Origin: a virus
Reading direction: 5' to 3' (one strand)
Length of the DNA: 41,517 nucleotides
Virus record (IMG/VR): IMGVR_UViG_3300049043_000026
Span: 1-41,517 of that record
The position numbers and the translations under genes were made by a program. Under the pieces are notes generated by a model that saw only the letters and a program-made list of their open reading frames with translations, was not told where the DNA came from and searched no databases. Within the stretch, counting starts at the first letter, position 1, and every line of letters begins with the position of its first letter. Of the stretch, positions 7,308 through 19,364 are shown in pieces.

Positions 7308-9430
7308 TTACTTCCTTTGGGTTGCCACGAATGCCTGTCCATGCGGCGTGCTGGCGACAATGCCAGGACGATTCCGAACGGTCGGTTTGGTTTCTGATTT
7401 TGCGATTGCCTTTTGCATCGCCTCGGCGGTGACGCGGGGAATCAGCCGCACGCCAAGACAGCCCGCCGCCGCACAGGCCAGCGCGGTGGCGTCCAAATAG
7501 TGGTTGTTTTTGCTCAACTCTTTCCACTTACGGACGACGCCCTTTCCCGGAACAAACTGCTCCTCTCGCATCTCGGCCACGATGTGGTGGCTGAACGCCA
7601 AATGCCGCTTCTTGTCGTGTCCGACGTACAAACTCAGACTCCCGTCGTTCCACTGGTGAGCCTCGTTAAAGGTGGCCGTCAGGAATCGCTCCTGCAGCCA
7701 GCCTTTCCAGTGCTCGACGTCGATGATGTACAGCCAGATGCGCTCCTGCGGCTGATGGTTGGCAAAGACATGGTTAAACAGCCGCCTAGTCGGTGACTCC
7801 GTGCCCATGTGGAACTTGCTCGAGGCGTAGCCCTTGCTGGCTGCAAACGGCGTCCCGCCAACCCGGCGGATAAACTCATACACGGCCGGCGAATAGTCGC
7901 CAGAATCAACAAGGCAAAAGTCCGGCGGATTCTTGGCCATGATGTCGGTCCGCCACAGAAGCAGGCTTTGCAGCAACGCAATCTCGACGGCCTGTGCATC
8001 GGTCGCCGCCTGCATTCCTGGCGTTTCCATGACGCCGTAATCGATCACAACGCCGGTGGCATTGCCGAACCATGCGATCTTGGTCCAGTGGCTGTAGTAC
8101 TTGCCGAGGTCGAGGCCGACGGTGATCTTCAGGTCTTCCATCTTCGGCAGCTCGTGCTGCTCCAGGCCGCTGACACGGCTGGCGACTTTGTGGGCTGTGA
8201 GTCCCAGCGTCTCGGCCTGCTCCTCCTCAGGCGGTGCGTTTTGGATTTCCGTCAGGACGTAGTTCAGGCCGTTATCGGCAACGAGGTTGTAGATTGACTG
8301 CAGGCGCTGTGTTCGATGGCGACGCCTTCGCGGGTCACGGCCCGGCTGTACCGTTCGGGGTTCAGCACCTCGCTGCCGCGTTCCATGTCTTCTCGGTTTG
8401 CCAGATAAAACGCTGTGGCGTTCAGCCCGCATCCGTCGCCGCTGCGCTGGTCTTCCTGACGCTGGTCGATGTACTGCTGCCAAAGGTCCGCACGCTCCGG
8501 CCACTGCTTGACGCCGCTGTATCTGCGTCCGTTCCAGCTGGGTGCCTTCGCCTGGTTGGTCAGCTTTTCGGCAAGGCAGCGATTGTTTTGGATGGTACAC
8601 AGCACCACTCGACTGAGCCGCTTGCGGCCGTCGGCCAGTCCCGCCACGTCTCGGTTGAGGATCACGTCTCGCGTCTCGACTTGGTTCTCGTGGAACGCAC
8701 TTTCCCGCGTCTCTGGATCATCGACCAGCACAAAGTCGGGACGATTGCCGCGGATGTTGATGCCACGGATGGCACTGTCCATTCCGGCCCACGCCATGCA
8801 GACAGCCGAATAGATGCTTACGCCGCCTTCGTGCCAAGGTTCGCCCTTGATGGTTGGCGGCAGGCCGTCAATCTTCGGGAAGACGACCTGATTGCTCGAC
8901 CACTGGATTTCGGTTGGCTTGCCGTTGTGCGTCTGCTTGGCGGCTCGCTGCGGCGTTCCTTCGAGTGCCGCACATGGCACGCACAGTTCTGGGAAGTCCT
9001 CGATCAGCTTTTCATTGCTGTCAAAATGCCGCCGGATGTCGTCGAAGATGCGGCTGGCAAACGTGCCACTGGCCGCAATCACCAGCGGAAAACGGACTAG
9101 CCCGCGGCAGATCAGATAAACGATCATCGCCTTGGTGATTTCCGTCTTGCCGTCGCCGCGTGGTGCCGCAATCGCCTGGTCACCGCCGAACTCGGCCACG
9201 TCGACAATCAGCTGGATCATCTCCTTCTGGTAGTCCGCAAACGGCGACCAGAACCGATCGGGAAAGTAGTATTTCAAAAACGCCACCGGGTCGCCCAACA
9301 AAGCTCGCCGTCTCTGCAGGTCGACCGGTGGCGGAATGACAATGCTGTTTCGCTCCAGCTGTTTCCGCTCGGCGTAGCGTGCTTGCTTAGACTGCTGCTC
9401 GCCGCTGTATTTTTTCACTGTTTGAATCAC
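7308..9430 (-). CDS. terL: Terminase large subunit, GpA family (frameshifted)
   Basis: About 707 residues: the DNA-packaging motor. The ATPase domain has a Walker A-type loop APRGDGKTE at about residues 89-97 and a Walker B strand FVLVDDPE at about 233-240. The nuclease domain shows the three acidic positions expected of the GpA type: VGLDLGKYYSHW, FCLVDSGDYSPAVYEFIRR and HYLDATALACAAA. GTG start at 9430, preceded by AAGGCGAG; an upstream TAG limits other choices. The frame changes at about 8312 (GAACACAG); restoring one A gives GVAIETQRLQSIYNLV. GpA-type terminases cut at cos sites, so cohesive ends are expected. No recognisable small subunit lies beside it. Confidence 0.9.
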
Positions 9431-14959: not shown

Positions 14960-15157
14960 TTACTTGTTTTCGATTTTTCGATTGAGATCAGCCAAGCGTT
15001 CCCACAGTTTTTCGCGGTCTTTTCGGCATTCAACAACTTCAGCACGAACAGACTCGAACTGGGCCATGAACCATTTGCCCATGTATGCGACGACGCCGCC
15101 AAGCGTTGCAACAGCAGCTCCAAGGGCACCGATCAAACTCAAGTCAACGTTTTGCAT
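14960..15157 (-). CDS. Small membrane protein with coiled coil
   Basis: 65 residues: one transmembrane segment at residues 7-30 (SLIGALGAAVATLGGVVAYM) and a charged, heptad-like C-terminal half (RAEVVECRKDREKLWERLAD). The type fits a holin, antiholin or an i-spanin-like protein. ATG at 15157; SD weak (GGTGG). It sits directly downstream of the papain-like protease gene, with other membrane proteins a few genes upstream, which fits a lysis role. No signature assigns it. Confidence 0.6.
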   Translation of the reverse strand: MQNVDLSLIGALGAAVATLGGVVAYMGKWFMAQFESVRAEVVECRKDREKLWERLADLNRKIENK

Positions 15158-15167
15158 GTTGCCACCA

Positions 15168-17126
15168 TTAACTCAGCGGGTTTGGGTTTGGGAAACTCAT
15201 TCCTGCCGGTGCATAGCCGATCATCACCGTCCACTTGGCGGCCAGTGCCGCTTCGATGCTTTTGGTGGTCCACTCGTTGCAGCCATCGCCCGCCCAGCGA
15301 CTCGACCACGAGTTGATCATGACTACATTCCCGCCAGCTCGCCGCTGCCAGAAAACTGTGCTGTGTCCGCCGCCGCCGCGGCCGCTATAGCTGTCGACGA
15401 CTTCGCGGTCGCAGCTGCTATTCCAAGTCACTCCAATTTGGACGGGCAAGCCTTGGTCCAACCATTCGACCACTGAGTTCACGTCTTTGAATGGTTTGGT
15501 TGTCGCGAGTCGAAACAAGAACTTGCCCTGTGCGGTTGGCGGCATCGCCGGGTTATAACGGCCGGGATATGGCCAGTCCGATTCGAGGCACAGCCCGTGC
15601 TGAGTGGCCACGTATTGGCCGCCGCTGAGCGTGCTGCCCATGTCGCCGCGGATGCCGTCTTTTTGTTGGCTGAGGTAGTAGGCCGCGGCGCGGCTGAATG
15701 CCTGTTTACGGCCGGTTGCCAAGAAATAGCAGATGCTGAACACTTGCGCCAGCGCATGGCCTTGGCAATTATGCACGACCAGACCTTGTGCGACAAAGGA
15801 ATGGTCTTCGTCTACGGTGATGTCGTAAACTGGAAAATCGACAACTGCTTCACGTTCAATTGTCCGAATAGGTCGCAACTGCCCCTCGTCACACCAACTG
15901 TAGGCAGTTTTTGTGTTGACGGTTGCAAACGAATCAGCCGCATTGCCGACGAACTGAACAGCGTCACCGCTGTAAAGGTATGTTTGGTATGACGAAAACC
16001 GCTGATGGTCGCGTTTTTGAGTTATCGAACGGCCCGGTTTCATTCCAATTGAAACCAGAAGCGTTGACAGTTGCTGCGACAAAACACGGGACGCGGTTGC
16101 AGAATGCAGCTGTAACGAGCGAACACGATTGCCAGATGCTGCTACGCGCCCGGAATCGTATCTGGCACGACTCCCATCTCCGGCAAAATAACCGCGAGCA
16201 AATGCCAGTTTTTGTGAATTGCTGCCAGTCAGAATGAAAGGCGGAACGTGCTTTTTATTGCAAAATTTTCCACAAAGCTTTTCAAGCAATCGCCCAATCA
16301 CGCATCCTTGCAGGCGGATGTGTACAGCCTTTGACGCTTCACGCTTTTGGATGCTTACAGAAACGCCAATGCGTTCCGCGAAACTCACGATCTGTTCGTG
16401 TTCAAAATGCTCATCTTTGTGCATCGTGAATACAGCACGATTAACCAGCCCAGCACAGGTTCGATCTGTAGAGCCTTCCGCGACATACAGACCAAGCACA
16501 TAGCAGGTCAGATCGTCTGCAGGGATAAAACGAGGCACCCAGTCTGGCGAATGCTTTGCTGCAACCCTGTCGCCATCGCACTGCAAATTTTCTACATAAT
16601 CTGCAACGTCAATAAACTTCGCAGGCTGCTCTTGAACACCACGAGAAACAACCATCTTGTCGGTTTCAATCACTTCATCGGCACGCACCCAAAACAGGTT
16701 GCCGTCTCGCCATACACGGACGACATGATCCGCCGTCATTCTAATGGTGCCCCATCCTTTGACGAAAAACCGATACAGGTCACCGCTGTATAGCCGCTGC
16801 ATAGTGTCGATGACTTGACGTGTTCGTCCTTGGTGCGTCAGGACGCCATCGCCAAAACGAACGTCCTCGATGTTTTTCAGTTGCCCGTCGTGCATCGTGA
16901 CTTTGGTGCCAGCTGGAAAACAGGATCCCTGCTGACCTTGATCGAGGATGTCAACCACGCCTAGCGGGTCGGCTGCAGTGTTGAATTTTGGAAACGTGTC
17001 CTTGAACTGCTTCAGCACCAGCTCGGGCTCTTGACCGCGTGACTCCAGTTCGTCGTGCTGTTCCCAGTCGAATGCGTAGCCGAGTAGTCCCGGCGTCAAG
17101 TCGATCGGCCGTTTGTCTTTGCTCAC
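15168..17126 (-). CDS. Papain-like (C1) cysteine protease interrupted by an intein
   Basis: 652-residue precursor; GTG at 17126 with GGAGG seven bases upstream, overlapping the previous stop as GTGA. Residues 69-453 are an intein (separate entry), leaving a 267-residue protein after splicing. The mature protein reads DQGQQGS-C-QGHALAQ across the junction, the active-site strand of papain-type proteases. The spliced catalytic residues would be Cys69, His203 (GGGGHSTVFW) and Asn220 (INSWSSRWAGDG, the N-S-W pattern). The intein therefore splits the protein immediately before its nucleophile, and that nucleophile is also the +1 residue of splicing. No signal peptide is seen. The gene lies among exported and membrane proteins next to a holin candidate. 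Its role may be lysis or virion processing, as argued in the findings. Confidence 0.88.
   Translation of the reverse strand: MSKDKRPIDLTPGLLGYAFDWEQHDELESRGQEPELVLKQFKDTFPKFNTAADPLGVVDILDQGQQGSCFPAGTKVTMHDGQLKNIEDVRFGDGVLTHQGRTRQVIDTMQRLYSGDLYRFFVKGWGTIRMTADHVVRVWRDGNLFWVRADEVIETDKMVVSRGVQEQPAKFIDVADYVENLQCDGDRVAAKHSPDWVPRFIPADDLTCYVLGLYVAEGSTDRTCAGLVNRAVFTMHKDEHFEHEQIVSFAERIGVSVSIQKREASKAVHIRLQGCVIGRLLEKLCGKFCNKKHVPPFILTGSNSQKLAFARGYFAGDGSRARYDSGRVAASGNRVRSLQLHSATASRVLSQQLSTLLVSIGMKPGRSITQKRDHQRFSSYQTYLYSGDAVQFVGNAADSFATVNTKTAYSWCDEGQLRPIRTIEREAVVDFPVYDITVDEDHSFVAQGLVVHNCQGHALAQVFSICYFLATGRKQAFSRAAAYYLSQQKDGIRGDMGSTLSGGQYVATQHGLCLESDWPYPGRYNPAMPPTAQGKFLFRLATTKPFKDVNSVVEWLDQGLPVQIGVTWNSSCDREVVDSYSGRGGGGHSTVFWQRRAGGNVVMINSWSSRWAGDGCNEWTTKSIEAALAAKWTVMIGYAPAGMSFPNPNPLS
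15768..16922 (-). other. Intein with LAGLIDADG endonuclease (385 residues)
   Basis: Starts with Cys (CFPAGTKVTM, the N-terminal splicing block), has a block B-like TADHVVRV with Thr and His, two LAGLIDADG motifs (LGLYVAEGS at intein residues 143-151 and ARGYFAGDGS at 242-251), a block F-like VYDITVDEDHSFVAQG, and ends VVHN before an extein Cys. All splicing residues are present, so it should be active. It would be a homing element that inserts in the most conserved codons of the protease gene. The exact ends follow from the extein reading naturally as QGS-C-QGH once it is removed. Confidence 0.9.
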
Positions 17127-17893
17127 TTCACGGCCTCCAGTGCGGTCGCGATTTCCGTGAGTGCCCCGTACCAGTCTTGGCGGCTGAAGCTGCCACGCTT
17201 GGCCTGTTCGGCTTTGACTGCTGCGTCCAGTTTTGTTTTCCAGACGCCCCACTGTTCGCACTTGGCCTTGTCGACGCACTGCCTTGCGGCAACGGCTGTA
17301 TTGATGTCGGAAAGAATGCGTTCAATGCTCGCCAGACCGCCTTCGCCGAATAGCTGGCCAGCCTTGGCACGGTAGAGACCAGCCCACGCCTTGGCGTTTG
17401 CCGTGTCGCTAGGTGCATTCTCAAACGCCACCAGACCGACGCCGTACTCGTTCGGCACCACCGAGGGGTCAGGCGGTGGCGTTGGTTCCGGCGTCGGTCC
17501 AGGCGGAGGTGATGGCTTGCCTCCAATGGTGAACGTGACTTCCCGATCATCAATCCCACGCTCGGGGTCGAAGACGGTTATTTCCACTGAATACGAACCG
17601 GAACCGGCAAAAAGGTAAGTTGCCTCTGCGACCTTTTCCGGCTCGATGCGGTTGCCGTTTTGCTTGGCCTTCAGGCGAGTGAACTTGTAGTCCGTGCGAA
17701 TGTCCAGCAGCACGACATCGCTGACGGCAACGTTGCTGTCTTCGCCAACCAAAATCCGGTTGCCTTGGACTACTGGATTCGTCACGCCAAGCAGTGCCTT
17801 TTTGCGGGTCACCTGCGTCTCGACCTGTGCTGAGGCGATGCCGCAAAGCAGTAGGGTGACCGTAACGAAAATGGCGGCGAGTTTGTTACGCAT
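17123..17893 (-). CDS. Exported protein with PKD-like domain
   Basis: 256 residues. Residues 1-22 are a Sec signal peptide (basic start, LAAIFVTVTLLLCG core, cleavage after ASA). Next is a beta-sandwich of the PKD/Ig type (SYSVEITVFDPERGID), a Pro-rich linker (PPPGPTPEPTPPP), and a helical C-terminal domain containing CVDKAKCEQW, whose two cysteines might form a disulfide in the periplasm. ATG at 17893 overlaps the stop of the upstream gene (TGATG); its own stop overlaps the protease gene. It would act outside the cytoplasm and may help the neighbouring protease reach or bind its target, but that is a guess from gene order. Confidence 0.72.
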   Translation of the reverse strand: MRNKLAAIFVTVTLLLCGIASAQVETQVTRKKALLGVTNPVVQGNRILVGEDSNVAVSDVVLLDIRTDYKFTRLKAKQNGNRIEPEKVAEATYLFAGSGSYSVEITVFDPERGIDDREVTFTIGGKPSPPPGPTPEPTPPPDPSVVPNEYGVGLVAFENAPSDTANAKAWAGLYRAKAGQLFGEGGLASIERILSDINTAVAARQCVDKAKCEQWGVWKTKLDAAVKAEQAKRGSFSRQDWYGALTEIATALEAVK

Positions 17894-18697: not shown

Positions 18698-19364
18698 TCA
18701 TCGACGCAGCAGCCGCTTGATGGCTGCTACGCTGCCACAGCGAATTGGGGCCGTGACCGAGTGGACGGTGCCAGCCGCGCTTTTCAGCTTTGTTCGGCAC
18801 CAGACTGAACCGCCCGAAATAACCCCGACCACCTTGCCAGCGGCATTAACAACTGGCCCGCCCGAATCGCCAGGCACTGCAAAACTAAACAGGATGGACG
18901 ACTGCTCGCCGACAGCCGCCACTTTGCTTTTGAAACATCTAAGGGCCTGACCGCCACCGAAGCCGCAGACCTTGACCTCGTCACCTTCGGCCACGTCATC
19001 GGCCACTTCCAGCACGCTGCAGCCTTCCGGCGTGTCGCACTGGACGGTGGCAACGTCGGCGTCTCGGTTAAACCGGCGAATGATGCCACGCTTGGCACTG
19101 CCATCGTGAAAGCTCACGGTCAGCGTCTGATTACCGTCAACCACATGAGCCGCTGTTAGCACTTCGGGCTTCTGCTCGCCACGAATCACGCAGCCGGTGC
19201 CAGTGCCGCCGTTCTGGTCGCCGCGTACGATGACCACGCTGGTTTCGATTCCAGCTGGCTCGACAAATTCCCACAAACCGCTATCAACGCCGACCTGTGC
19301 AGCAGCAGGCTGCACCAAAGAAAAGGGACACCAAAGCAAAAACAGATAGCTTGGCGAGATTCAC
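18698..19364 (-). CDS. Secreted trypsin/HtrA-like serine protease (frameshifted)
   Basis: About 221 residues. Catalytic triad visible: His in LTAAHVVDG, Asp in DADVATVQ, Ser in VPGDSGGPVV. GTG at 19364 with AAAGGCAGG upstream opens a signal peptide frame (NLAKLSVFALVS); dropping one T in a run at 19321-19324 joins it to LVQPAAAQVG, a perfect signal peptide ending AAA. The later part of the protein is intact in one frame. It would degrade or process proteins in the periplasm or outside the cell. Several cysteines could form disulfides. A structured leader precedes it. Confidence 0.82.

Follow-up and report, generated by a model that had tools for sequence, protein, structure and literature searches.

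The chemistry of intein splicing is established step by step (PMC10663303), and the sites at which inteins are inserted lie on average 8.3 Å from active sites (PMC3359363). In the part of a mycobacteriophage survey considered here, phage inteins are placed within the catalytic motifs of TerL, RecB-like and TOPRIM proteins (PMC5050341). In archaeal MCM, a proline at the +1 position blocks splicing and gives rise to resistant alleles (PMC10643990). Class 1 LAGLIDADG inteins, such as PI-SceI/VMA, PI-PkoII and those of phage ribonucleotide reductase, portal and methylase, share with the intein described here blocks A, B, F and G, Cys1, an HN end, a +1 nucleophile, two LAGLIDADG motifs and a site within a conserved motif. 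The present intein differs from them in sitting within a papain-like protease and in having the host's own catalytic nucleophile as its +1 residue, and the sequence identity is only about 25-31%.

This intein is encoded in the window, the stretch of 41,517 nucleotides from an IMG/VR virus record that was analyzed here. The precursor gene (15168..17126, minus strand; 652 aa) encodes a papain-like (C1) peptidase together with the intein, and its GTG start overlaps the stop of the upstream gene in a coupled arrangement. Also on the minus strand, the N-extein comprises residues 1-68 and ends in DILDQGQQGS (16923..17126), the intein comprises residues 69-453 (15768..16922; 385 aa, CFPAGTKV..LVVHN), and the C-extein comprises residues 454-652 and starts with CQGHALAQ (15171..15767). 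The end of the N-extein is defined by a gap-free alignment with intein-free orthologues, and the predicted spliced product is 267 aa long. The original prediction had proposed a 385-residue intein with a Cys start, two LAGLIDADG motifs and a VVHN end, separating QGS from CQGHALAQ. These lengths, coordinates and junctions were confirmed by the open reading frame, by Pfam and NCBIfam matches, and by the orthologue alignment; the match of intein and junction is far past chance. The third-position GC content is 0.48 in the intein vs 0.69-0.72 in the exteins.

Judged by its motifs, the insert is a canonical class 1 intein of the kind that carries a LAGLIDADG homing endonuclease, and the intein type itself is ordinary. 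The class 1 motif set is complete, with Cys69 as Cys1, TADH in block B, VYDITVDEDHSF with its Asp in block F, HN in block G and Cys454 at +1, and intein-free homologues with a gap-free junction exist, as is characteristic of this class (18 orthologues). On the minus strand, the motifs run from splicing block A (CFPAGTKVTMHDG; 16884..16922; PF05203 residues 1-40) and block B (MTADHVV, TxxH; 16719..16739) through the first (YVLGLYVAEG; 16473..16502) and second (AFARGYFAGDG; 16173..16205; PF14528) LAGLIDADG motifs, both of which keep their acidic residues, to block F (VYDITVDEDHSFVAQG; 15783..15830; TIGR01443) and block G (LVVHN, with the penultimate His and terminal Asn453; 15768..15782). The intein scores above the cut-off for PF14890 (1.7e-12), PF05203 and LAGLIDADG_3 (PF14528), matches the TIGR01443 intein_Cterm model at 1.2e-9, and matches the solved inteins PI-PkoII and PI-SceI. 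It is real and intact-looking, and it is probably active.

The evidence for a papain-type host comes from the joined extein. Peptidase_C1 (PF00112) was matched by the joined extein only (E 3.9e-5, 24.3 bits, cut-off 20.7), while a PF00112 search of the intact window, where the gene is interrupted, gave no match. The joined extein also matches phrog_16701 'peptidase' at 6e-8, and its best solved relative is xylellain (3ois), whose QGxxGSC motif aligns with that of the family profile. Four residues correspond to the catalytic set of papain, all encoded on the minus strand: Gln63 (codon 16938..16940) to the oxyanion-hole Gln19, Cys454 (15765..15767) to the nucleophile Cys25 by alignment, profile and motifs, His588 in GGGHSTV (15363..15365) to His159, and Asn605 in INSW (15312..15314) to Asn175. 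In spliced numbering these are Q63, C69, H203 and N220, and they are invariant in an 11-sequence alignment of the orthologue family. Thus both the joined-extein profile match and the Gln-Cys-His-Asn set that define the C1 family are present. Foldseek with a model of the intein-free orthologue L004 returned 212 PDB chains at E <= 0.001, with xylellain first (4.8e-7) and then cathepsins, which is the papain fold, albeit from a low-confidence model. The precursor model retrieved the inteins PI-PkoII and PI-SceI, then cathepsins. The AF2 models have low confidence (pLDDT about 60) and served for fold recognition only, not for precursor geometry or active-site access.

Because the orthologues align gap-free over Ser68/Cys454 and QGxxGSC is aligned with that of xylellain, the catalytic Cys is the +1 residue. 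The proposal that the intein lies directly before a papain-type catalytic Cys that doubles as the +1 splicing nucleophile therefore stands, upheld by the invariant residues, the xylellain profile match and the L004 model; by alignment, the insertion point in this phage C1-type peptidase falls between papain positions 24 and 25. The window protease shares with xylellain and the cathepsin-type C1A peptidases the QGxxGSC motif, the His and Asn, and the papain fold. It differs from them in being phage-encoded, lacking an obvious signal peptide and being interrupted by an intein.

Searches of viral contigs recovered 18 close orthologues, and all 18 lack the intein and align gap-free over the junction, which fixes the insertion point with certainty and shows that the protease can do without the intein. 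Their identities are 87% for L001 (a partial sequence), 69-71% for L004-L014 and 49-61% for L015-L020. With terminases that are 96-99.5% identical, L001 and the window represent closely related phages, one lacking the intein and the other carrying it. At the DNA level, they are 85-93% identical at distances of more than 24 codons, but identity falls to 46% over the 8 codons that precede the site. In this flank L001 is the outlier against all relatives (33-50%), and over the 8 codons that directly follow the site the window is 92% identical to L004. The target site of L001 (L001:2-646) reads KNQQAQCAC vs DQGQQGSC, with the catalytic Cys (Cys25) kept. The flank divergence may reflect co-conversion during homing or, since L001 differs there from every relative, a target change in L001; both are possible, and the altered target could represent an escape from homing. 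The extein dN/dS of about 0.2 between the window and L001 fits a functional spliced product.

The remaining genes of the window include those for a portal, a ClpP-like head protease, a major head protein, a terminase, RecT and an integrase, so the virus is likely a temperate tailed phage. The terminase large subunit is split over overlapping frames 8264-9430 and 7308-8600 (minus strand) that join near 8279-8303, while in L001 it occupies one frame at the identity given above; the split is a frameshift or a sequencing error. The C1 protease belongs to a conserved cassette, which runs from a trypsin-like protease through short ORFs that encode membrane segments to a secreted-type protein, the C1 protease itself and a membrane-type protein of 65 residues. 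On the minus strand, the neighbor at 17123..17893 adjoins the protease even in distant relatives and by eye possesses a signal-peptide-like N terminus and a proline-rich linker. The small conserved membrane-type neighbor (14960..15157, minus strand; 65 aa) weakly matches phrog_462 and spanin-like families, and the trypsin-like protease (18698-19339, minus strand; PF13365, 2.2e-18) is conserved in closer relatives. A role of the C1 protease in head maturation is unlikely given the ClpP-like head protease, and a role in lysis, considered from the neighbors, or in virion entry is conceivable.

Inteins at the same site were sought by two routes: a degenerate DNA scan of viral contigs for papain motifs with an intein-like start behind them, and scans with intein alignments in which the host was not constrained. 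Single-sequence patterns had found none, and the degenerate DNA patterns and alignments were then used. Together with that of the window, 19 full inteins and one partial (L180) were found in viral contigs directly ahead of this cysteine; at least 18 other uncultured phages thus carry a related intein there, in papain-like peptidases that are highly diverse. In many members, the intein portion matches phrog_36001. PF00112 is matched above cut-off by the hosts L168, L174 and L177, and by L183 once both of its inserts are removed. With hhalign against the window family, the +1 Cys falls on the catalytic Cys in 11/14 exteins, some at low probability, and by BLASTP 16/18 of the other exteins match intein-free phage peptidases with QGxxGxC. 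The L174 extein, for instance, matches L057 with 59% identity across 301 residues (BLASTP), while L175 and L176 are assigned as papain-like by motifs only. On these matches, the papain catalytic-Cys site is a recurrent intein target. Among INPHARED isolates no intein was found in a C1 gene, and scans of genome_contigs with window-family motifs returned remote peptidases only.

Several other insertions were observed. In L183, the catalytic Asn motif is immediately followed by a second intein-like insert (LAGLIDADG_3, 5.4e-7; NSWG|CYDDKTEIL..SGN|SDWG), whose removal restores the PF00112 match (9e-8), and L288 carries one after INSWG (NSWG|CFDEQTEIL..). A clade A-like intein in L179:3001-4029, truncated by the contig end, interrupts another cysteine motif, GNDVHGDCT|C. 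LR756511 and OP559178 were rejected as protease inteins, as their matches ran beyond the junctions and translation revealed ribonucleotide reductase hosts. Likewise, L142, L143 and L145 matched the DNA pattern but proved not to be peptidases, the matches being either out of frame or in Hint domains of tail-type proteins. In two of these phages (L143:5700-8894 and L145:827-3799), large tail-type proteins have, close to their N terminus, a short Hint domain that ends in HNKGG and lacks a +1 Cys/Ser/Thr.

Trees were built from 64 and 65 inteins; those at the papain site form two groups, and no intein from another host falls within either. Clade A comprises L168, L169, L170, L171, L172, L174, L175, L176, L177 and L178; clade B comprises the window intein, L183, L189, L201, L231/L253, L250, L255, L267 and L288 (L231 is unlabelled in the first tree of this set). 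Only 2 label changes are required on the tree, vs 16.5 in shuffles, and a single origin of all papain-site inteins is neither demonstrated nor rejected (AU p 0.44). The window intein likely belongs to clade B, in which it is the deepest branch, with support of 99/91 and 88/89 that varies with model and sampling; it is a long branch, with about 28-31% identity to its kin. Median identity in clade A is 43% for the inteins vs 24% for the exteins, which argues that the element moves between hosts; the corresponding values in clade B are 30% vs 24%. The extein of L174, which bears a clade A intein, has its nearest relatives in L253 and L255, which bear clade B inteins. Intein and host relationships thus disagree, and both intein types have reached one peptidase subfamily at one site.

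The reading to which we assign a probability of roughly 0.87 is that of a selfish, mobile class 1 LAGLIDADG intein that exploits a motif its host cannot change, activation of the protease being an unavoidable by-product of splicing. It draws on the exact insertion, the intact splicing, endonuclease and catalytic residues, the intein-free orthologues and the two lineages found only at the papain site over divergent hosts, all of which are read from sequence. Cys69 would form the first thioester, Cys454 would attack it to give the branched intermediate, Asn453 would cyclize, and an S-N shift would seal the extein with a Ser68-Cys454 peptide bond, after which the freed Cys454 would serve as the protease nucleophile. 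The endonuclease is envisaged to target the DNA codons of the QGxxGSC catalytic motif, which would allow homing into very different phage papain-like peptidases. Because one cysteine would be both protease and splicing nucleophile, the host could alter flanking bases only, as loss of the catalytic Cys would be loss of the enzyme. A +1 Cys that cannot be exchanged without enzyme loss would be a simple reason for the repeated use of this site. Splicing, precursor inactivity, endonuclease activity and an origin of the flank divergence in homing are all inferred. The inactivity of the precursor is a reasonable expectation because the oxyanion Gln and the catalytic Cys are 385 residues apart and the central helix starts at the Cys.

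Other explanations question the host, the state of the intein or its purpose. The family match of the extein is modest at 24.3 bits, and the blank PF00112 search of the uncut window, although due to the interruption of the gene, could suggest an extein other than a papain-type peptidase, or one with its catalytic Cys elsewhere. This is scarcely credible, however, given the invariant Q-C-H-N tetrad, the aligned QGxxGSC of xylellain, the xylellain and cathepsin structures that head the Foldseek matches, and the phrog_16701 match. The intein could also be decaying, with splicing lost and the protease dead. Decay at this site may happen, as in the host of a sister intein, L171 (L144:1143-2966), the C-extein seemingly lacks the catalytic His region, a possible case of host-enzyme decay. 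In the window, however, the splicing residues, both LAGLIDADG motifs and the four catalytic residues are all intact, and the extein is under purifying selection relative to L001, which makes decay very improbable here.

A further alternative is that the intein is kept as a switch or timer, so that a harmful protease stays inactive as long as redox state, metals, temperature or the stage of infection do not permit splicing. An insertion at the catalytic nucleophile would in principle make activity depend on splicing; some inteins are reported to splice conditionally, and a 2023 review presents inteins as candidate environmental sensors (PMC10663303). On the other side, the close orthologues are uniformly intein-free, the endonuclease motifs are kept, the distribution is sporadic and the element moves between hosts, and a 2014 review found no intein with a physiological role for conditional splicing (PMC4031507). 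The last 10 residues of the N-extein contain no cysteine that could form a redox trap. The suggestion of the original prediction that redox, metals or temperature control activation was therefore not borne out, and a retained switch is improbable. A broader idea is that phage papain-like proteases are a dedicated intein target class, with two lineages specialized for the catalytic Cys codon and another intein type for the catalytic Asn motif, since the shared nucleophile would be indispensable to the host, and that in some phages this yields a splicing-gated, delayed-action protease; it is speculative and seems unlikely as a whole.

The locus extends the range of proteins that inteins have invaded by an apparently undescribed host class, the phage papain-like peptidases. 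The open-access literature yielded no report of an intein that occurs naturally in a papain-like protease, and the host family, the insertion site and the coincidence of two nucleophiles appear to be undescribed. It would be a clear-cut example of a splicing nucleophile that is also the catalytic nucleophile of the host, so that neither can be lost separately. With about twenty natural inteins, divergent hosts and many empty-site relatives, the system could test whether active-site clustering reflects target conservation, the lack of host escape, or regulation. In addition, as the protease probably has no activity before splicing, it would make a very sensitive splicing reporter.

The archaeal MCM-a and VMA-b inteins, which occupy the same Walker A position (PMC10643990), share with the window intein a recurring insertion at one catalytic position in different host proteins. 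Their host is a P-loop ATPase, whereas that of the window intein is a cysteine peptidase. The conserved Lys of Walker A is not known to be the splicing nucleophile in MCM-a and VMA-b. The phage active-site inteins of TerL, RecB-like and TOPRIM proteins, as far as the considered part of the survey describes them (PMC5050341), and the general active-site bias (PMC3359363) have in common with the window intein a conserved functional site, a need for splicing before function and spread among phages. In contrast, no papain-like protease is among the host groups named in that part of the mycobacteriophage survey (PMC5050341), and in the window the distance between the intein and the catalytic nucleophile is zero.
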